Shown here piece by piece: positions 5,246-52,107 of a DNA stretch of 64,000 nucleotides. The stretch's first letter is position 1. Every line of letters begins with the position of its first letter. This DNA comes from Gammaproteobacteria bacterium. Lineage in GTDB: Bacteria; Pseudomonadota; Gammaproteobacteria; Steroidobacterales; Rariloculaceae. The stretch is taken from assembly GCA_022820625.1 (NCBI GenBank), contig JAJEFE010000127.1, positions 1 to 64,000 of the forward strand, in the 5' to 3' direction. A model generated the notes under the pieces. The model made no database searches, was not told where the DNA came from, and saw only the letters and a program-made list of their open reading frames with translations. The translations under genes were made by a program, and so were the position numbers.

Positions 5246-6645
5246 GTGAACATGCAAAACTCTCTCGCCGTGACTTCCTGAACGCCGGACTCGGTGGCGT
5301 TGCCGCTGGTCTGGTTCCCGGCGTCGCCGGCGCACAAGGGAGCGATCGCTGGACCGGCGCACTGGCCAGTACTCACCATACACCTAGGGCCAAACGCGTC
5401 ATCTGGCTGTACATGGCCGGCGGCCCGTCGCAAATTGACCTGTTCGACTACAAGGCAGAACTCGAAAAACGCGACGGCGAAATGTTCCCGGAATCCCTGA
5501 CCAAGGGTCAGCAAATTGCGCAATTGCAGGGCAAGGAACTTCGCGTATTTGGTCCGCAATTCAAGCACCGGCAATACGGTGAGTCCGGAATCCGCATGAC
5601 GTCGCTTCTGCCCTACATCGGCAACAACGTCGCGGACAAAATGTGCCTGATCAACTCAATGCGCACGGAGCAAATCAATCACGATACTGCGCATATGTTC
5701 ATGAACACGGGCAGTCAGGTCGCAGGACGGCCGAGTTTTGGCTCCTGGATTGATTACGGTCTCGGTGGCATGGCTGGCGACTTGCCGCCGTATGTCGTCA
5801 TGGTTTCAAAGGAAGTCGACAGCGGATCGCAACCGTTGTCGAATCGCCAATGGAATTCAGGATTCTTGCCGAGCCGCTTCCAGGGCATAGAATTCCAGTC
5901 CGGCCGTACACCGGTTTACTACCTCGACAACCCCGGCACGGGCGCCAGCCACCAGGAGTTTCTCGTCGACCAGATTCGGGCGCTGAACGATATTGACCGG
6001 TCCCGTTCCAAAGATCCGGAGTCGGTTACGCGCAATCTGCAGTATGAAATGGCCTACCGGATGCAGCACAGCCTGCCGAACCTGGCGTCGCTCGATGACG
6101 AACCGGACTACATCAAGAACATGTATGGTCTCGGCAAGGGCAATGACAGCTTCGCACGCAACTGCCTGCTCGCCCGCAAAATGGCCGAAAGCGGCGTTCG
6201 GGTGATCCAGCTATACCATCGAGGCTGGGACCATCACAAAAACCTGAGCAATCGCTTTCCGAAAGTGTGCAAGTCCGTCGATCAGGGTTCCGCCGCGCTG
6301 GTACTGGACCTCGAACAACGCGGCCTCCTCGAAGACACGCTCGTCATCTGGGGCGGAGAATTCGGACGTACTCCTATGGGCCAGAACGGCGACGGTCGCG
6401 ATCATCACATCCAGGCATTCTCAATGTGGATGGCGGGCGCCGGCATCAAGCCAGGCATCATTTACGGCGAAACCGATCCGTTCGGCTACAACATCATTCG
6501 CGACGAAGTCCACGTCCACGACTTTCACGCAACGATCATGCATCTGATGGGCATTGATCACGAAAAGCTTCGCTACCGTTACCAGGGTCGCGATTTTCGA
6601 CTGACCGACGTCCACGGACACGTTGTGAAGAATATTCTCGCCTGA
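5242..6645 (+). CDS. DUF1501 (sulfatase-like superfamily) Tat-exported protein
   Basis: A 467-residue protein starting with a twin-arginine signal SRRDFLNAG (residues 8-16), so probably exported folded. DUF1501 markers follow: the NxMRTEQINHDTAHMF region, VIWGGEFGRTPMGQ and GRDHHIQAF near residues 370-395, a histidine/aspartate-rich metal site like that of alkaline-phosphatase/sulfatase relatives. The start overlaps the stop of the DUF1549 gene by four bases (ATGA), so the pair is translationally coupled. Its substrate is unknown. The next gene, a sulfatase, is convergent. The family is frequent in Planctomycetes but also occurs in marine gammaproteobacteria. Confidence 0.9.
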   Translation: MSEHAKLSRRDFLNAGLGGVAAGLVPGVAGAQGSDRWTGALASTHHTPRAKRVIWLYMAGGPSQIDLFDYKAELEKRDGEMFPESLTKGQQIAQLQGKELRVFGPQFKHRQYGESGIRMTSLLPYIGNNVADKMCLINSMRTEQINHDTAHMFMNTGSQVAGRPSFGSWIDYGLGGMAGDLPPYVVMVSKEVDSGSQPLSNRQWNSGFLPSRFQGIEFQSGRTPVYYLDNPGTGASHQEFLVDQIRALNDIDRSRSKDPESVTRNLQYEMAYRMQHSLPNLASLDDEPDYIKNMYGLGKGNDSFARNCLLARKMAESGVRVIQLYHRGWDHHKNLSNRFPKVCKSVDQGSAALVLDLEQRGLLEDTLVIWGGEFGRTPMGQNGDGRDHHIQAFSMWMAGAGIKPGIIYGETDPFGYNIIRDEVHVHDFHATIMHLMGIDHEKLRYRYQGRDFRLTDVHGHVVKNILA

Positions 6646-6679
6646 GACTGATGCGATTGCGCACAATGGCCCTGCCGTC

Positions 6680-6696
6680 AGCTTCGACATGAAGCT
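6680..6696. terminator. Small stem-loop between convergent genes
   Basis: AGCTTC and GAAGCT form a perfect six-base stem around a five-base loop, in the 96 bases between the convergent DUF1501 and sulfatase genes. There is no T tract on either strand, so a terminator role is only suggested by position. Confidence 0.25.
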
Positions 6697-6741
6697 ATAC
6701 CTGTGCGTTGTCCGCATGTTGTCATGCCCTTTTGTTGGTCG

Positions 6742-8340
6742 TCAGGTTCCGAATCCGGAACTGAGAGGCTCGTTCGATGGAACATCGAACTTCTTTTTTT
6801 GCTTCTCAAGATGCGATTCCAGATTGCGTCGAATATCTCTATACCGGGGATCGTCGTATACGCTGCGCATTTCCATCGGGTCCTCGATCAGGTCGAACAA
6901 TTCCCACTCGTCCGATATCAAGAAATGAATCAGCTTGAAACGTTTGTCGGCAACTCCCTCATGCGGCTCAACGAGGTGGCTACCAGGGTATTCGTAGTAG
7001 CGATAGTAGAGTACATCGCGCCATTGGTATTCGAGTTCGTTTTCCAGGATGGGGCGTAAGCTTAGTCCCTGCATATGGGGATTGGCATCGACGCGGGCGA
7101 GATCCAACAGGGTCGGGGCAATGTCAAGGTTGGAGACGAGCTCGCTGGTGGAGGTTCCCGGTTCTATTCTTCCCGGCCATTGCATGAGCAATGGCGTTCG
7201 AAATGACTCTTCGTACATAAATCGCTTGTCGTACCAGCCGTGCTCGCCCAGATAGAAACCCTGATCGGACGAGTAAATAACGATCGTGTTGTCTTCCAGG
7301 CCGTTGGCAATGAGGTAGTTGAGAATCTCACCGACACTGTCGTCTATGGAACGGATTGTGCGCAGGTAGTCTTTCAAATAGGCTTGATACTGCCAGCGAA
7401 CGAGATCGGCACCCTCGAGAACAACATCTGCAATATCAGCGTTTCTTTGCTTGTACGCGGCATACCAGAGGCGTCGCTGCGCATCGCTCATATTGCCGTA
7501 CATCCACTTCGGCCATGGTGTGTCGTTCTCGACTCCGTAGGCTTTCAGGTCTTCGCGCTGGGTTTCCTCACTGGGGTCATAGATTTTCAGATCCGCCCGA
7601 GGTCGGAAATCGTTGGCAATCGTCATCGCCTGATTGCTCGCCGCTGATGCTCGATTTTCGTAGCGGTCAAAAAGATTGGCAGGCTCCGGGATCGTCTGGC
7701 CTTCGAGAAAGTACAAATGTCGCGGACCTGATACCCACGGTCTGTGCGGTGCCTTGTGCTGCATCATCAACAGAAAGGGTTTGTCCTTCCCGCGGACCGT
7801 CTCAAGCCAGCGAAGCGATTTTTCAGTCATAATATCAGTGACATAGCCAGGTACGGTTTCGATACCCGCTTTCGTCTTGAATTCCGGGTTGTAGTACAAC
7901 CCCTGGCCTGGCAAGACATCCCAGTGATCGAAGCCGGTCGGATCGGAACCCAGGTGCCATTTGCCGATAATTGCCGTTTCATACCCATTCTCCCGAAGCA
8001 TCTTGGGAAAGGTATTTTGGCTGCCATCGAATGTGGTGGCGTTGTCGCGAACGCCATTGAGGTGGCTGTACTTCCCAGTCAGCACGACAGCACGCGCCGG
8101 CGCGCATATTGAATTCGTTACAGTGGCCCGGTCAAAGCGAATACCGTTCCGCGCAATACGGTCAATGTTCGGCGTCGGAGCGACATCCTTCAGGCGGCCG
8201 CCATACGCACTGATGGATTGAAACGCATGATCGTCACTGTAAACAAAAATGATGTTGGGGCGAGCCTCGCTCGCAGCAGAAATACACGGGAGTAAGGCTG
8301 CAAGCGCGCCGAGCAACAAGCCTCGCTGTGGGATATTCAT
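6742..8340 (-). CDS. Secreted sulfatase (S1 family, formylglycine type)
   Basis: A 532-residue sulfatase with a signal peptide (residues 1-25, cleavage near SAASEA). The metal site DD (36-37) lies in VYSDDHA. The sulfatase signature is C79-A-P-A-R, with Cys79 the residue normally oxidised to formylglycine; the usual serine of CxPSR is alanine here. GKWHLG lies at 126-131 and a second metal site in SSDQGF. The C-terminal YRYYEYP and RFKLIHF blocks match N-acetylglucosamine-6-sulfatase/choline-sulfatase-like subfamilies, but the sugar cannot be told. It is a close paralogue of the sulfatase at 11780-13321 (ATVTNSIC and ETAIIGKWHLGS shared). It is transcribed left from the AT-richer region at 8341-8460. 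Confidence 0.9.
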   Translation of the reverse strand: MNIPQRGLLLGALAALLPCISAASEARPNIIFVYSDDHAFQSISAYGGRLKDVAPTPNIDRIARNGIRFDRATVTNSICAPARAVVLTGKYSHLNGVRDNATTFDGSQNTFPKMLRENGYETAIIGKWHLGSDPTGFDHWDVLPGQGLYYNPEFKTKAGIETVPGYVTDIMTEKSLRWLETVRGKDKPFLLMMQHKAPHRPWVSGPRHLYFLEGQTIPEPANLFDRYENRASAASNQAMTIANDFRPRADLKIYDPSEETQREDLKAYGVENDTPWPKWMYGNMSDAQRRLWYAAYKQRNADIADVVLEGADLVRWQYQAYLKDYLRTIRSIDDSVGEILNYLIANGLEDNTIVIYSSDQGFYLGEHGWYDKRFMYEESFRTPLLMQWPGRIEPGTSTSELVSNLDIAPTLLDLARVDANPHMQGLSLRPILENELEYQWRDVLYYRYYEYPGSHLVEPHEGVADKRFKLIHFLISDEWELFDLIEDPMEMRSVYDDPRYRDIRRNLESHLEKQKKKFDVPSNEPLSSGFGT

Positions 8341-8460
8341 TCTTGCTCCTTCGGATATCGGCCCACTGCCTCTAGCTCTTCGATATAAGCGTGTTGACTG
8401 CGATATTTACCGCCAAGAGAATTCTAGAGTCATGATTGCACTGACAAAAGCGTCAAACTG

Positions 8461-8490
8461 TCATGACTTCATGCAAATATTGCTTCAATC
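8461..8490 (+). pseudogene. Decayed 5' end of a second LysR gene
   Basis: On the + strand TCATGACTTCATGCAAATA differs at one base from the leader and start of the intact LysR gene on the opposite strand (TCATGACTTTATGCAAATA, ending near 9643). Both encode HDF-MQIL. The match stops just before the inverted-repeat element at 8494. This suggests a divergent LysR copy once faced the sulfatase and lost everything after about codon 8. A shared regulatory motif rather than a gene remnant is the alternative. Confidence 0.5.
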
Positions 8491-8493
8491 TTT

Positions 8494-8685
8494 GGGACTT
8501 GTATCGTTGACTGCGCAGCGGAACAATAATGCCCGAAGGGGGCATCTGGCAGGTGCCCGACCCTGTGAATGGGGTGTCGCAAGAGTGTTTGGACCTTGGA
8601 AACCCGCAATAAACACCCTGCCCGACGCTATCGATCAACCTGTATGCATTATTCCGCGTTTTGCGCAGTCAACGATATAAGTCCC
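8494..8685. mobile_element. 192-bp inverted-repeat element (MITE-like)
   Basis: The left end GGGACTTGTATCGTTGACTG (from 8494) and the right end, read on the opposite strand from 8685, GGGACTTATATCGTTGACTG, agree at 19 of 20 bases. The match continues GCGCA on both sides and, with small gaps, through CGGAA..TAATGC, giving terminal repeats of about 24-40 bases. The interior of about 110 bases has no plausible gene. No clear target duplication is seen (TTT on both sides is too short to judge). Size and structure fit a non-autonomous transposable element. The right repeat contains the stop codon of the LysR gene. Confidence 0.6.
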
Positions 8686-9652
8686 CCTTTTTTAGCACTA
8701 CATTATGTCTATGGGGCAACTCATGGCCGGGAACTGATGCACTCGTTGCCGAACGCGACGCATGCAGCGTCTGCTCCGCCTCGCGCAGGATCCAGTTGCA
8801 CAATTCCGTTACGATGGGGGCCGTCGGCCGGTTTTCCGGAATGGCGATATAGTAGCCTTTGCTGGACTCGATCGCGCTGGTGCTGGCGAGAACGAGCTTG
8901 CCGCGTCCCAATTCTTCCTCAACGAACAGATCGGGTAGTAACGCTGCACCGAGACCGGCAACGGCAGCTTCCGTCAGCATGGAAAACTGGTCCAGCAACC
9001 AGCCTCTGTAGGCGTTCCTGGTGGAAATTGACAATTGCGTACACCAGTCCACCCATGCCGTACGCCGCAGGGACAGATGCAGCAGGGGCGCGGCTGCCAG
9101 GTCCGCATCGGAAAGGATGTTGTGCCTGCGAAGGAAGTCGGGGCTGCTGATGGCGATCATGCGCTCGTCGAACATATGGTGCATTCGCGTCCCGGCCCAG
9201 TCCGGCGTGCCGAAGTGTATGGCGATGTCGAACGGTTCTGCATCGAAGTTGAACGGATCGAATTTGGAAGTCAGGCGAATTGAAGCCTGGGGATGTTCGG
9301 CATAGAACTTCGGCAGGCGCGGAATCAACCACCGCGAGCAGAAGGTCGGCAATGTCGCCATCTCAATAAGTTGCACCCCCTTGGCGCGCGCACTGACCCG
9401 GGTCGAAGCCGCTTCCAGGTTGGCCATGATGGGCTGGATCTCCTCCAGGTAAGCACGGCCTGCCTGGGTCAATACGATGCGCTGCCGAATCAGGTCGAAC
9501 AGCCTTGCGCCAAGCAGGTCCTCCAAACCCCGAACCTGCCGGCTGACGGCGCTCTGCGCCAGGCAGAGTTCCTCTGCCGCACGCGTAAAGCTGCCAAGTC
9601 GCGCGGCCGCCTCGAAAGCGCGGAGAGACTTCAGAGTAGGCAGTATTTGCAT
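8669..9652 (-). CDS. LysR-family (GcvA-like) transcriptional regulator
   Basis: A 327-residue regulator. Residues 8-65 form the winged helix-turn-helix (LRAFEAAARLGSFTRAA, then LAQSAVSRQVRGLE), and residues 90-300 the periplasmic-binding-like effector domain (PLLHLSL, GLGAALLPD). The start is ATG 9652, aligned to the usual MxxLPxLxxLRAFEAAAR beginning of GcvA-type members; a much longer upstream reading frame is not credible. The last 20 or so residues (after LREAEQTLHAS) look non-native, and the stop lies inside the inverted repeat of the adjacent element, so the C-terminus was probably altered by that insertion. It is divergent from the pyridoxamine-oxidase-like gene and probably controls it from the site at 9665-9681. 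Confidence 0.88.
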   Translation of the reverse strand: MQILPTLKSLRAFEAAARLGSFTRAAEELCLAQSAVSRQVRGLEDLLGARLFDLIRQRIVLTQAGRAYLEEIQPIMANLEAASTRVSARAKGVQLIEMATLPTFCSRWLIPRLPKFYAEHPQASIRLTSKFDPFNFDAEPFDIAIHFGTPDWAGTRMHHMFDERMIAISSPDFLRRHNILSDADLAAAPLLHLSLRRTAWVDWCTQLSISTRNAYRGWLLDQFSMLTEAAVAGLGAALLPDLFVEEELGRGKLVLASTSAIESSKGYYIAIPENRPTAPIVTELCNWILREAEQTLHASRSATSASVPGHELPHRHNVVLKKGDLYR

Positions 9653-9664
9653 AAAGTCATGAGG

Positions 9665-9681
9665 AATTAATGCTTTTAATT
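9665..9681. promoter_or_regulatory. LysR-type operator (dyad ATTAA-N5-TTAAT)
   Basis: AATTAA (9665-9670) and TTAATT (9676-9681) form a perfect inverted repeat with five bases between. The core ATTAA-N5-TTAAT is a T-N11-A box of the kind bound by LysR regulators. It lies 13 bases upstream of the LysR start and about 60 bases before the divergent gene at 9743, the expected place for an autoregulatory and divergent-promoter operator. Confidence 0.5.
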
Positions 9682-9742
9682 GTTGATTTATAGCTCTAAT
9701 ATCGGGTGGACTGCAAGTTGTGCACACGCAACGGGACCATTC

Positions 9743-10294
9743 ATGGGTAAGGTCTACGAAGAAATCAACGACAGGCTGGCGGCGTTCATCGAGGCACAGC
9801 ACATCTTCTTCGTCGCGACAGCGCCCGAACGCCCGAATGGCCTGGTCAACGTTTCGCCGAAGGGGCATGACAGTTTCCGCATTCTCGGGCCGCGACGGGT
9901 CGCCTATCTCGACATCACCGGCAGCGGGGTGGAAACCATCGCGCACGTCAAGGAGAATGGCCGCCTCACCGTCATGTTCTGCGCCTTCGACGGACCCGCC
10001 AAGATCCTGCGGCTATACGGTAACGCTCGGGTCTGTGAGCGTGGCGACGAGGGCTACGACGAGTTGCTGGCCAAGTTTCCCGAGTACCCTGGCATTCGCT
10101 CCATAATCGTCTCGGACCTGTTTCGCATCGCCGACTCCTGCGGCTGGTCGATTCCGTTTTACGACTACCGTGAAGAACGCCAGCAATTGTTGCGTTACGC
10201 TGCGTCCTTTGACGAGGAGCAACTGCTGCAAAAGCACCGCGACAACTGTTCACACAGCCTCGACGGCCTGGTGGGCGTAAAGCCCGACCTGTAG
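9743..10294 (+). CDS. Pyridoxamine 5'-phosphate oxidase family (flavin-binding split barrel) protein
   Basis: A 183-residue cytoplasmic protein with the FMN-binding split-barrel features of this family: FFVATAPE (residues 22-29), NVSPKGHDSF (36-45), YLDITGSGVETIAHVKENG (58-76) and ARVCERGDEGYDEL. Family members bind FMN, F420 or haem; the true pyridoxamine phosphate oxidase signature is not seen, so the substrate is unknown. Start ATG 9743 is chosen because MGKVYEEI matches family starts; the ribosome site is weak. It is divergent from the LysR gene and followed after 30 bases by a sulfatase on the same strand, so the two may be cotranscribed. Confidence 0.8.
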   Translation: MGKVYEEINDRLAAFIEAQHIFFVATAPERPNGLVNVSPKGHDSFRILGPRRVAYLDITGSGVETIAHVKENGRLTVMFCAFDGPAKILRLYGNARVCERGDEGYDELLAKFPEYPGIRSIIVSDLFRIADSCGWSIPFYDYREERQQLLRYAASFDEEQLLQKHRDNCSHSLDGLVGVKPDL

Positions 10295-46902: not shown

Positions 46903-48258
46903 TTACGAACCGGCGGCCATGGAATCAATACGGCTTCTCACCGAATCCGCCAGGCGGTGGGCCACCGAGGAGACGGTTTCTTCGTCCTCGCCCTCCACCA
47001 TCACGCGAATCACGGGCTCCGTGCCGGAGGCCCGAAGAACCACGCGGCCGTGTTTTCCGAGAACTGCCTCAGCTTCGCCTACGGCGTCGCGGATGGCAGG
47101 TTCTTTGTTGACGTCAAGTGTGTGTGCGGCCTCGACGTTGACGATCAGTTGCGGGTAGACCGGCATGTCCTCGACAAGTTCCCGGAGGCTGGCTCCGGTA
47201 CGGCGCATTACCGCGAGGACCTGTAGCGCGGTGACGAGGCCGTCGCCGGTGGTGGCCTTGTCGAGGCACAGGACGTGTCCCGAGGTCTCACCGCCCAGTA
47301 TTCCGCCGCTGGCCTTGAGCATCTCCAGGACGTGGCGGTCGCCTACCTTCGCGCGGCGAAATTCGATGCCGAGTTCCCCAAGCGCTGTTTCAAGGCCCAG
47401 GTTGCTCATTACCGTGCCGACGACCGGGCCTCGCAACGCACCCTGCTCCAGCCTGTCGCGCGCCAGGATATAGAGCAGGCGGTCACCGTCGATCAATTCA
47501 CCGCTTTCGTCCACCATCACCACACGGTCGCCGTCGCCGTCCAGCGCCAATCCGGCGTGGGCGCGCACACCCGTCACCGTCAATTGCAACAAGTCAGGCC
47601 GGGTCGCGCCGCAGCCGTCATTGATGTTCCGCCCGTTGGGAGAACAGCCAACCGGCACCACTTCCGCCGCCAGATCCTCCATCACCCGAGGCGCAACCTT
47701 GTAGGCGGCGCCGTGGGAGGCATCCACCACCAGTTTCAGTCCTTCGAAGTTCATACCGCCGGGAATCGTCCGCTTGCAGAACTCCTGGTAGTCCACCCGC
47801 GTGTCGGCGATATGCCTGGCCTGCCCCAGCGCCCTGGAGGAACGGGTCACGACTGGCGATTCGAGCTGCGCCTCAATGGCCTCCTCGATCTCGTCGGAGA
47901 GCTTGGCGCCCGCGCGGTCGAACAGCTTGATGCCGTTGTCGTAGTAGGGATTGTGTGAGGCACTGATTACGATACCGAAGTCAGCGCCCAGCTTCCTGGT
48001 TAGAAAAGCGATAGCAGGCGTCGGCAACGGCCCCGTGAGCAGCACGTCAACGCCGGATGCCACAAATCCCGCCTCCATGGCCGATTCGAACATATAGCCC
48101 GAGACGCGCGTGTCCTTGCCGATAAGCACCGACCCGCCATCGGGCGCCAGCACCCGGGCCGCCGCGCTGGCCAATCGTAACGCGAATTCCACAGTCATCG
48201 GCGGCCGGCCGACTTCCCCACGAATCCCGTCAGTACCGAAATAGCGCTTGGACGGCAT
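46903..48258 (-). CDS. glmM: Phosphoglucosamine mutase
   Basis: A 451-residue enzyme converting glucosamine 6-phosphate to glucosamine 1-phosphate for cell-wall precursor synthesis. KRYFGTDGIRG begins the protein, ISASHNPYYDNG carries the phosphoserine Ser101, DGDGDRV (about 240-246) binds magnesium, GETSGH recognises the sugar, and RASGTEPVIRVMVEG binds phosphate. ATG 48258 lies one base after the stop of the inserted unit's second gene, so glmM translation probably depends on that gene being translated. In relatives folP precedes it. Confidence 0.97.
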   Translation of the reverse strand: MPSKRYFGTDGIRGEVGRPPMTVEFALRLASAAARVLAPDGGSVLIGKDTRVSGYMFESAMEAGFVASGVDVLLTGPLPTPAIAFLTRKLGADFGIVISASHNPYYDNGIKLFDRAGAKLSDEIEEAIEAQLESPVVTRSSRALGQARHIADTRVDYQEFCKRTIPGGMNFEGLKLVVDASHGAAYKVAPRVMEDLAAEVVPVGCSPNGRNINDGCGATRPDLLQLTVTGVRAHAGLALDGDGDRVVMVDESGELIDGDRLLYILARDRLEQGALRGPVVGTVMSNLGLETALGELGIEFRRAKVGDRHVLEMLKASGGILGGETSGHVLCLDKATTGDGLVTALQVLAVMRRTGASLRELVEDMPVYPQLIVNVEAAHTLDVNKEPAIRDAVGEAEAVLGKHGRVVLRASGTEPVIRVMVEGEDEETVSSVAHRLADSVRSRIDSMAAGS

Positions 48259-48259
48259 T

Positions 48260-48727
48260 TCAGGAATCAGATTTCTCTTCCAGGACTACTGCTGGATGCA
48301 TGGCAACAACACACTGCGAAATCAGATCGCCGACATACATTGCGAGGTCTGATTCACCAGGCGGCAGTCCTGTAACTTCCGCATGTGATGGGTCGGCTTC
48401 ATACACTTCATCCGCTTCAAGCGGTTCATGAACGATACGCAGCAGCATCGACTCTTCCGAGACCGACCGGATGGTTGCGCCGACGTTCAACTCAGCGAAT
48501 CGTGCGGCTGGTTTTCTTTCCAATCGACATAGCTGGCGAACCTTTGCCATTTGATAGCCCTTTCCTGATCCCAACACCTCCAGCCAGTTTACCGATAGCC
48601 CTGTTTCGTCCGGTCGATTCGGACGCAGCCGAAAGTCCGCGCCATCCGGAGTTCCATCCTTGCGAATCATGCTCGGCTTGACATAACGAACGATGTGATC
48701 GTCCTGTGGCAAATCATCGTTTTTCAT
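48260..48727 (-). CDS. Hypothetical protein, second gene of the inserted ftsH-glmM unit
   Basis: A 155-residue protein that I cannot place in a named family. Visible blocks: HIVRYVKPSMI (about 12-22), GADFRLRP and GLSVNWLEVLGSGKGYQMAKVRQL, then ESMLLRIVHEPL and GESDLAMYVGDLIS. It is soluble, with no signal or helix-turn-helix obvious. ATG 48727 overlaps the stop of the preceding gene by four bases (ATGA), so the two are made together; glmM follows after one base. Codon use and base composition are AT-richer than neighbours, indicating acquisition. It may act as partner, immunity or substrate-selector of the larger protein (inference). Confidence 0.7.
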   Translation of the reverse strand: MKNDDLPQDDHIVRYVKPSMIRKDGTPDGADFRLRPNRPDETGLSVNWLEVLGSGKGYQMAKVRQLCRLERKPAARFAELNVGATIRSVSEESMLLRIVHEPLEADEVYEADPSHAEVTGLPPGESDLAMYVGDLISQCVVAMHPAVVLEEKSDS

Positions 48728-49914
48728 TCGTATAGCAGGGATTGAAGTTCGAACGCTCGAATCTGGCTCTCGAATCCAGCAACCGTGTCCCTCCCAACGA
48801 CTCTCGAAACTGGCCGCGACGCGCATCTCCGCTTGAAAAGAACAAACTGCACAATATCGTCACCGAGAAACTGCAACCCCACGTGTGTCTCCTTTTCATC
48901 CTGCCAGACCGCACGCAGATTGCCATTGTCGATCAGCACGAGCTCGAACCGGCGCAGTCGAGGCCCGGCGCCAAAGAAATTCCAGAATCCCTGTTCGGAC
49001 TCCGGACGAAGCGAGTAACCATCGTCCACCGCATAAGCGCATAGTTCCTTGATTCGCGAACGGTAGATATCGGAATCTTCCAATCGAAGGACGTCGGGTT
49101 CATAGAGTTGAGCTGCTTTCTCGGCAACAAGATTATTTGTATAGCTCGCGCTATTCCCGGTGTCGTCGACGTGCGAATAATGGAAACTCAACTTCTGTGA
49201 CATATCGGCAAACCTAGAAACGTTTTCGGTCAGGCGTGCAGAAGGATTGACGATAAAGAAACTCCTTGCGGATCCTGCCCCTGAGCGCACTGCAATTGCA
49301 TTTCCTCCAAGCTTTTTGAGCCAATAGTCTATCTCCTGAATATTGCGGTACTTTCGCGTGTGATGGTGATAAACAACCACGGTGCGACCACCGTGGGCCA
49401 AAGTTTCAACTTCACTTACGGGTATCCGCTTCCAGTGTTTTACGGTTCCATAGCGAAATTTCTCGTTTTCATATAATCCGTTATCCGGATCAACAAAAAT
49501 CAAATTACACTCATCGAGCTTCCTTCGGGACTCGTCAAACCAACCCCTGCGCCACTTCTTGCGATTCTGATGGTCTGCTACCGTATTTCGCGCTATGGAA
49601 TGAGGGGGAGTCAGTCTCTTCGAGAAAAATCTCGTATTGTTTCCAAGAATTTCGCTATCGCATTCGATTGAGGCTACCTTTCGGGCTTTGCGTTCTACTA
49701 TCTCCTTGAGTTTCCAATAGAGTTCTTTGTCCAGATGCTCCCAGTCCTTCCGTCTCCGCCTGTCAAGGTACTCCAAGTGGCCACCATCGCCGTTGGGTTC
49801 GTCGGGGTACAGATACCACGCCACTCCAAGTCTTCCACCTTCGACCTTGCGTATGAGACGAAGGAGAGCGTACTTGACGTAATCGCCTATATCTCCGGTG
49901 TACCTGTCTTGCAT
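48724..49914 (-). CDS. Hypothetical two-domain protein, first gene of the inserted ftsH-glmM unit
   Basis: A 396-residue protein. Domain 1 (about 1-245) begins DRYTGDIGDYVKYALLR and contains LGVAWYLYPDE, NLIFVDPDNGL (Asp142-Pro-Asp144) and VVVYHHHTRKY (His183-185), a Rossmann-like layout recalling methyltransferase or nuclease folds but without a clear SAM motif I. A linker follows, then domain 2 (about 297-396) with IDNGNLRAVWQ, VGLQFLGDDIVQFVLFKRR and a C-terminal helix. No signal, no membrane helix. It starts at ATG 49914, 168 bases beyond the ftsH stop; that gap shows nothing I recognise, not even folP remains. Lower GC than flanking genes. Function is unknown. Confidence 0.75.
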   Translation of the reverse strand: MQDRYTGDIGDYVKYALLRLIRKVEGGRLGVAWYLYPDEPNGDGGHLEYLDRRRRKDWEHLDKELYWKLKEIVERKARKVASIECDSEILGNNTRFFSKRLTPPHSIARNTVADHQNRKKWRRGWFDESRRKLDECNLIFVDPDNGLYENEKFRYGTVKHWKRIPVSEVETLAHGGRTVVVYHHHTRKYRNIQEIDYWLKKLGGNAIAVRSGAGSARSFFIVNPSARLTENVSRFADMSQKLSFHYSHVDDTGNSASYTNNLVAEKAAQLYEPDVLRLEDSDIYRSRIKELCAYAVDDGYSLRPESEQGFWNFFGAGPRLRRFELVLIDNGNLRAVWQDEKETHVGLQFLGDDIVQFVLFKRRCASRPVSRVVGRDTVAGFESQIRAFELQSLLYE

Positions 49915-50082
49915 AGGATAAGTACGTGATGACTATCGCTTACGGCATTGGCTACGGGCTAATGGCAACAAGCGATATGACGCTCGATCAAGCGCAGCAG
50001 ACTGTCACCGGGACGCCGTTCAGCAATTCCTCGCGGTGCAATACAGGGAAATCCCGCAGTTTCGCGCGTGCCGGTCCGACAA

Positions 50083-52002
50083 TCAGTGCTGGCCCGCGGG
50101 ACCGCCCAGCGGTGGCGTGCCCTTTTCCTCGGCGGGCCTGGGTTTGGTCGAAAGGCCCTCGCCGGGTTCGGAGTCGTCCCAGTCTTCCGGCGGACTGGGC
50201 TCGCGGTTTTCCATGACTTCCTGGATCTGGTTCTCGTCGAGGGTTTCGTACTTCACCAGCGCGTTGGCCATCAGGTGCAGCTTGTCCATCTCGCGCTCGA
50301 GAATGCTCTTGGCGTCGACGTAGCAGACGTCCACCAGCTTGCGAACCTCTTCGTCGATGGCGTGCGCAGTCACGTCGGATACCTGCTTGTGGCGGGTGAC
50401 GCTGCGGCCGAGGAAGATCTCGCCGTCGTCCTCGCTGTAGGTCAGCGGGCCCAATCGGTCGGACAAGCCCCACTTGGTCACCATGTTGCGGGCAATCTCC
50501 GTGGCGCGCTCGATGTCGTTGGAAGCCCCCGTGGTCACGTAGTCTGCGCCGTAGATGATCTCCTCGGCGATGCGGCCGCCGAAGAGGCTCTTCATCTGGC
50601 TGAGGAGGCGCTGCCTGGAGTAGCTGTAGCGGTCCTCTTCCGGCAGGAACATGGTCAGGCCCAGCGCCCTGCCCCGCGGAATGATGGTCACCTTGTAGAC
50701 GGGATCGTGCTCCGGGACATGGAGGCCGACGATGGCGTGCCCGGCCTCGTGGTAGGCCGTGAGCCGCTTGTCGTCCTCGCTCATGACCATGGAGCGGCGC
50801 TCGGTACCCATCATGATCTTGTCCTTGGCGCTGTCGAACTCTTCCATGCCGACGGTGCGCCGGTTGGCGCGGGCCGCCAGCAATGCCGCCTCGTTGACGA
50901 GATTGGCCAGGTCCGCACCGGAAAATCCGGGCGTGCCGCGTGCGATTACCGACGGCCGTACGCTCTTGCCGATCGGCACCTTGCGCATGTGGACTTTCAG
51001 TATCTGCTCGCGGCCGCGCACGTCGGGCAGCGGCACCACCACCTGGCGGTCGAACCGCCCCGGCCGCAACAGCGCCGGGTCGAGCACGTCCGGACGGTTG
51101 GTGGCGGCGATGACGATTACTCCCTCGTTGCCCTCGAAGCCGTCCATCTCCACCAGGAGCTGGTTCAGGGTCTGCTCGCGCTCGTCGTGCCCGCCGCCGA
51201 GTCCGGCGCCGCGATGGCGTCCGACGGCGTCGATCTCATCAATGAAGACGATGCACGGCGCGTGCTTCTTGGCCTGCTCGAACATGTCGCGGACACGGGA
51301 AGCGCCCACGCCCACGAACATCTCAACGAAATCGGATCCGGAAATCGTAAAGAACGGCACCTTGGCCTCGCCGGCGATGGCGCGCGCCAGCAGCGTCTTG
51401 CCCGTGCCCGGAGAACCAACCATGAGCACGCCCTTGGGAATCTTGCCGCCGAGGCGCTGGAACTTGGCAGGATCCTTGAGGAATTCGACGATCTCGACAA
51501 CTTCCTCCTTGGCCTCCTCGACACCCGCCACGTCGGCAAAGGTTACGCTGACCTGATCCTCGCCCAGCAGCCTGGCCCGGCTCTTGCCGAAGGACATGGC
51601 CCCGCGGCCCCCGCCGGCGCCCTGCATCTGGCGCATGAAGTAGATCCACACGGCGATCAACAGCAGGATCGGGAACGAGGAGACGAACAACTGCAGCAGG
51701 AACGACTGCTGCTCCGGCGGTTCCGCCTGGATGCGTACGTTGTTCTCCTGCAGCGTGGTGATCAGCAGGGTATTGTCGGTCTCCGGGTTATACGTCACGA
51801 ACGCGTCGCCATTGCGGTCGTACTCGATGGTGTCGCCCGTAAATGTCACCGTGGACACCGAGCCGTCCTTCACCTGGGCGATGAATTCCGAATAGGGAAC
51901 AGTCTCCACGCGCTGGTTCGCCGGCCCGAAGCTTCGAACCACAGACGCCAGCACGACGGCGATGACGATCCAGAGAATCGCGTTCCTTACCAAGTCGTTC
52001 AA
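50083..52002 (-). CDS. ftsH: ATP-dependent zinc metalloprotease FtsH
   Basis: A 639-residue inner-membrane protease for quality control of membrane and regulatory proteins. Two N-terminal helices (about 5-22 and 100-120), AAA module with GSPGTGKT (about 195) and [10 protein letters not shown], second region of homology [20 protein letters not shown], and zinc site HEAGH (about 418). The C-terminal tail is charged and proline-rich. The start is TTG 52002, with GGGGGTAGGG just upstream; no ATG fits the beginning [11 protein letters not shown]. It lies between rlmE and the inserted unit. Confidence 0.97.
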
Positions 52003-52107
52003 GACCCTACCCCCTTCGGCATTCCCGCCGAATACCGCAGCGGCCGCTGGTAGCAGAACCCGCCGATACACGGTTTTCGGCTGGTTCCGGCACTAAAGCG
52101 GACCCTA

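Follow-up and report, generated by a model that had tools for sequence, protein, structure and literature searches.

An acquired gene pair between ftsH and glmM joins a head of predicted RlmJ-like fold to a strictly linked adaptor and partner and probably forms a bacterial immune system of an uncharacterised kind

The two overlapping genes between ftsH and glmM in the window, the whole 64,000-nucleotide stretch of DNA analysed here, constitute an acquired unit that probably serves bacterial immunity in a way not yet characterised. With moderate confidence, we regard it as a rare conflict module that spreads horizontally and is most likely directed against phages, in which an exchangeable head is combined with a conserved adaptor and a partner. 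Gene 1 (49914-48724, minus strand) encodes a 396 aa protein (P0001) in which a head domain (49144..49914, minus strand; approximately residues 1-245, the coordinates corresponding to residues 1-257) is fused to an adaptor module (48727..49107, minus strand; approximately residues 270-396), and gene 2 (48727-48260, minus strand) encodes the 155 aa partner (P0002), which likely fills the effector slot. The fusion was demonstrated by a search of 58 relatives, in which the matches to gene 1 split between residues 1-237, found as a stand-alone gene (L002), and residues 279-396, found in other genes; the two-part character that the first-pass annotation had ascribed to this protein is therefore real.

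The insertion is flanked on its 3′ side by glmM (46903..48258, minus strand) and on its 5′ side by ftsH (50083..52071, minus strand). The stop and start codons of the two genes overlap as ATGA (48724..48727, minus strand), and a single base separates the gene 2 stop codon from the glmM start at 48258 (TGA-A-ATG). The GC content of the unit is 0.510, compared with 0.639 in glmM and 0.645 in ftsH, and the unit is the lowest-GC 1655-bp segment in the 64 kb, ~3 SD under the mean of 0.627. The first-pass annotation had described this layout, the one-base spacing to glmM and the AT-richness relative to both flanks correctly, and all of the motifs that it quoted (VDPDNGL, YHHHTR, NGNLRAVW, VGLQFLG, VRYVKP, and LSVNWLE) are present. 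In the 168 bp leader between the ftsH stop and gene 1 (49915..50082, minus strand), neither a promoter match nor a stable RNA fold above chance was found. The leader contains an 8-bp inverted repeat upstream of gene 1 (49934-49941 / 49970-49977, TATCGCTT/AAGCGATA, arms 28 bp apart), which may be an operator or may have arisen by chance. A second low-GC stretch (GC < 0.56), possibly another acquisition, was observed at 5301-9850 of the window, with ORFs resembling DUF1549/DUF1553, DUF1501 and sulfatase genes typical of Planctomycetes.

The history of the site was read from the ftsH-glmM junctions of relatives; glmM was found in 39 of them, with the preceding 1500 bases readable in 30. In the readable junctions of the window's own family, only 8-204 bases separate the end of ftsH from glmM, the exceptions being the window genome (G000) and G001, which has a 699-base gap. 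The junction of the nearest relative, G005 (glmM 97% identical, ftsH match 100%), is empty with a 91-base gap, and G001 (glmM 93%) carries at the same site a remnant that keeps the N-terminal 98 residues of gene 1 and, joined to them in frame, the C-terminal ~40 of gene 2. The absence from G005 and, the G001 remnant apart, from the other readable junctions of the family, together with the low GC content, demonstrated that the unit was acquired here, as the first-pass annotation had proposed, and the flanking bases adjacent to glmM suggest a single shared insertion that was afterwards lost or deleted. The remnant (L003:1372-1794), joining the head start to the partner end, forms an intact 140-aa reading frame, which may be maintained or may be a one-in-three coincidence. 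Two further proposals of the first-pass annotation fared less well. Its statement that relatives carry folP at this site applies to most other families of the order (frames 276-339 aa), but not to the window's own family, where folP is absent in every readable member, and the folP of the window genome lies on a different contig (C152). Replacement of folP by the unit was thus rejected, because the family had lost folP from the site before the insertion; the unit was inserted into an already shortened ftsH-glmM junction. The proposal that the unit preserves itself by coupling to glmM is likewise weakened, because most of the unit was deleted in G001 without loss of glmM, and glmM is also intact in G005, which has no unit. 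Comparison of the G000 copy with that of G001 gave pS 0.76 and pN 0.23 over the 97 head codons, compared with pS 0.49 and pN 0.035 for glmM; the unit has therefore diverged faster than its flank, yet its protein is under constraint. The unit is scarce, being present in 5/147 relatives.

Seventeen homologous loci were found with the partner alignment alone, the presence of an adaptor being no condition of the search, and in 17/17 the adaptor gene lies directly upstream of the partner with the same 4-base ATGA overlap. These results demonstrated a strict adaptor-partner linkage, repeated in unrelated contexts across four bacterial groups, namely Gammaproteobacteria (including Arenicellales), Alphaproteobacteria (Ruegeria, Alterinioella), Gemmatimonadota and Bryobacterales, the gamma- and alphaproteobacterial hosts being sponge-associated or marine. 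The adaptor, with the pattern DNGN(L)RAVW...GLQFLG...SRV.GRD, is a separate gene in all 17 loci and is fused to the head in the window; the partner carries the pattern D(H)IVRYVKPSMI...LSVNWLE...DPSHAE. All 17 adaptors are open, and the partners are truncated or frameshifted in 5/17 loci (L010, L020, L021, L022, and L023), some of which may be assembly errors because the loci are mostly MAG contigs. As the first-pass annotation had anticipated, neither P0001 nor P0002 belongs to a named family, with no direct match to Pfam, NCBIfam, PADLOC, PHROGs or PDB sequences; nothing credible was obtained for the partner in viral contigs, plasmids or the PDB, and no DNA of the unit was found on plasmids. 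The predicted structure of the partner was unusable (pLDDT 41), so that its proposed effector role draws no support from structure.

The linked pair was foreseen by the first-pass annotation as a two-component module, but elsewhere the module is larger, with an interchangeable head gene in front of the adaptor. A TIGR04255 protein is encoded upstream of the adaptor in 9/17 loci (L007, L008, L009, L011, L012, L013, L015, and L022, with a remnant in L023), and a glycine-rich protein in the other 8/17 (L010, L014, L016, L017, L018, L019, L020, and L021, the last assigned by eye from the reading frame). Exchange of heads on one adaptor-partner pair was thereby demonstrated, the version in the window being the fused RlmJ-like head. 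The glycine-rich head (L014:6704-7297, L017:4098-4691 and homologues) shows GGGGGGGG runs and a FEWPW(T/S) start and has no Pfam match. In two more distant units, L025 and L142, a further kind of head precedes a related adaptor-partner pair. TIGR04255 is present in 18/185 genomes of the class, gave no match in the window genome, so that gene 1 is not TIGR04255, and was found on one plasmid (Mycobacterium) and in no phage record; a literature search returned no mention of it. The two genes after TIGR04255 vary between loci: some units have a helix-turn-helix protein second and an unnamed protein third, others an adaptor of a second class (WDG...PxxGxIxxEW) together with a partner of its own, and in three loci the third place is taken by a PIN nuclease, so the third position looks like an effector slot. 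An unnamed third-gene family with the motif T(H/Q)(S/D)CD(I/L) was also observed after TIGR04255 (L027, L030, L031, L041, L044, L045, L046, and L049), the proteins searched having no Pfam or NCBIfam match.

The second adaptor class connects the unit to PDC-M32, a computational PADLOC candidate. Using hhalign, the window-type adaptor scored 36.1 (E 3.5e-5) against the second, TIGR04255/PDC-M32-type adaptor, and the window-type partner scored 29.0 (E 5e-4) against the second-class partner, compared with maxima of 17.8 and 15.2, respectively, in 60 column shuffles each. One second-class adaptor protein scores against positions 270-330 of PDC-M32A, which consists of a different head followed by an adaptor module in the C-terminal part of a single chain, and in G058, TIGR04255, a second-class adaptor module and PDC-M32B are consecutive. 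The PADLOC profiles themselves gave no match of PDC-M32A to P0001 (E<=1) or of PDC-M32B to P0002, and PDC-M32B reached only E 0.019 with the homologue L007. The profile comparisons of adaptor and partner demonstrated a distant kinship with PDC-M32, and we do not file the unit as a member. PDC-M32 has been reported in Sinorhizobium prophages with no function given, and neither a published function nor a defence assay was found for it in the literature.

The AlphaFold model of gene 1 had a mean pLDDT of 69, with values from 60 to 93 over the greater part of the head. When this model was submitted to Foldseek, the top 14 rows were all RlmJ/DUF519 proteins, including a Legionella relative (E 8e-6 to 1.5e-4). 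Supporting this, VIA aligned the head to RlmJ with Z 12.4 over 209 residues (rmsd 4.1 Å; RlmJ range Z 11.6-12.4), compared with Z 7.8 for the next family. The head gave no match to the RlmJ sequence family PF04378 and none to five RlmJ proteins in profile-profile comparison (hhalign); since sequence profiles give no link, the kinship is drawn only from the predicted structure and the reading of motifs. Across 14 head homologues, the features GD..D..K and DPDNG are invariant, as are K14 and D142. The alignment of head and adaptor homologues used in the analysis (A7) has ~12 misplaced residues per head row. RlmJ motif X, G-N-x-x-D-x-x-K, corresponds by eye to G-D-x-x-D-x-x-K in the head, the Asp-Pro of motif IV is retained, with DPPYE of RlmJ becoming DPDNG, and the SAM-binding motif I (THAGAG) is absent, the aligned positions reading WYLxPDE..N.DG.H. 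Mutants of RlmJ showed that Y4, H6, K18 and D164 are required, K18 and D164 being the catalytic pair (PMC3814359). K14 and D142 of the head fall in the motifs matching K18 and D164 as placed by eye, and this invariant D/K pair reads like the catalytic pair of RlmJ. Collectively, the model and motifs indicate a predicted Rossmann/methyltransferase fold of RlmJ type with a rebuilt active site, and we do not class the head as RlmJ.

Homologues of the head also occur alone, in L002, on three plasmids (Ensifer, Lacticaseibacillus, and Sulfuricurvum) and in 13 contigs of viral or prophage origin, with neither adaptor nor partner beside them. The viral contigs came from the head alignment and the genome loci from the partner alignment; scans of the genome and viral collections with the single sequence of P0001 returned nothing. 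On the Ensifer plasmid, the homologue lies between two genes annotated as GIY-YIG nuclease, the downstream one without such a Pfam domain. Among the 13 viral or prophage contigs, two carry McrBC and a macrodomain gene beside the head, one of these also an ADP-ribosylglycohydrolase, and in another GmrSD adjoins the head. In the two McrBC clusters (L063:2711-5720 and L070:987-5339), the McrC, macrodomain and RlmJ-like genes are adjacent, followed in L070 by the ADP-ribosylglycohydrolase, which suggests a separate composite restriction/ADP-ribose locus. In the related prophages L059-L069 (for example, L060:5001-5747 and L064:5001-5720), the RlmJ-like gene was observed on the opposite strand between apparent terminase and portal genes, placed as an accessory (moron) gene would be.

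A role in defence is suggested by the neighbours of the homologous loci and the kinship with the defence candidate PDC-M32. Consistent with the first-pass annotation, which had looked to defence-type neighbourhoods, Pfam identified GmrSD in L010 and HerA with SIR2 in L017, and reading of the frames gave HsdM/HsdS in L013 and DNA methylases in L012, L019 and L020; an OLD-like ATPase was also recognised by reading and PADLOC similarity. The copy in the window is surrounded by core genes, with no defence island there, and a literature search found no link between RlmJ and the phrase 'phage defence'. Adaptor and partner are constant, the head changes, and sister units may carry a PIN nuclease as their third gene; on the simplest scheme, the head would be sensor or signal handler, the adaptor the coupling and the partner the effector. 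The head may use the former RlmJ active site to recognise or chemically handle a nucleic-acid or nucleotide infection signal, the adaptor would hold the partner and couple it to the head, and the triggered head would free or activate the partner, a putative damaging effector.

The main rival to the conflict module, which we consider unlikely, reverses these roles in a toxin-antitoxin-like manner: the RlmJ-like head would itself be the toxic or effector enzyme, with nucleic acid or nucleotides as the target of its modification, and the adaptor and partner together would be its brake. The tight gene overlap, the invariance in 14 homologues of a D/K pair resembling the catalytic one of RlmJ (PMC3814359), and the occurrence of the head alone and near McrBC/macrodomain/ADP-ribosylglycohydrolase genes and GmrSD all fit such a toxin. 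On the same adaptor-partner pair, however, TIGR04255 and glycine-rich heads substitute for it, which places the shared function in the adaptor and partner; moreover, neither an adaptor nor a partner accompanies the head where it stands alone, and breakage is greatest in the partners rather than the heads.

It is less probable still that the unit is mobile cargo of a non-defensive, selfish or regulatory kind that landed between ftsH and glmM by chance and is now decaying. The remnant in G001, the absence from G005, the five broken partners among 17 and the few genomes carrying the unit (5/147 relatives) would be expected of decaying cargo, but the constraint between G000 and G001 (pN 0.23 vs pS 0.76 over 97 codons), the strict linkage across four bacterial groups and the defence-type neighbours argue against it. 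That the unit works within the ftsH-glmM operon, for instance by controlling glmM translation, is disfavoured as very improbable: the TGA-A-ATG spacing and the want of a good Shine-Dalgarno sequence near the glmM start, as judged by eye, agree with it, but all other readable genomes of the family except for the one remnant lack the unit at this site, and its homologues lie in unrelated contexts.

Within the conflict-module reading, we tentatively extend the scheme to a family of head-swapping immune modules, which is possible though held with less than even confidence, in which one adaptor-effector engine is fitted with interchangeable heads each reading a different infection signal: TIGR04255 as the commonest, the glycine-rich head, the PDC-M32A-type head, and a repurposed RlmJ-fold enzyme with the D/K pair and without the SAM loop. 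The finding joins TIGR04255, the PADLOC candidate PDC-M32 and an unnamed RlmJ-fold family of prophages, plasmids and McrBC loci. Should the heads prove to be exchangeable sensors attached to one shared engine, function could be approached by head swaps and many orphan three-gene units could be annotated. The RlmJ fold, repurposed in this way, would also open a new path leading from RNA modification to immunity.

Among known systems, RlmJ (YhiR; the 23S rRNA m6A2030 methyltransferase, PF04378/DUF519) resembles the head in its predicted fold over ~210 residues, the motif X pattern and the motif IV Asp-Pro, whereas the head has DPDNG in place of DPPYE and lacks the THAGAG loop and a PF04378 match, and gene 1 carries a C-terminal adaptor and has a different genomic setting. 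Type II toxin-antitoxin pairs with PIN toxins likewise consist of short overlapping genes, and TIGR04255 units can carry PIN in third place; unlike them, the unit in the window contains no PIN domain or recognisable antitoxin, and its relatives elsewhere have an obligatory third component. TIGR04255, a 'sporadically distributed' NCBIfam family, provides the head before the window-type adaptor and partner in 9/17 loci, although in the window an RlmJ-like domain takes its place and is fused to the adaptor. PDC-M32 (PADLOC-DB 2.0 candidate, PDC-M32A and PDC-M32B), which occurs in prophages and adjoins a lysin-like gene in L128, shares with the unit a head and adaptor in one chain followed by a short related partner; it differs in its head domain, and its adaptor and partner are too diverged for the PADLOC profiles to match the window proteins. 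The unit is thus PDC-M32/TIGR04255-like with a new head, of a kind already known but uncharacterised.
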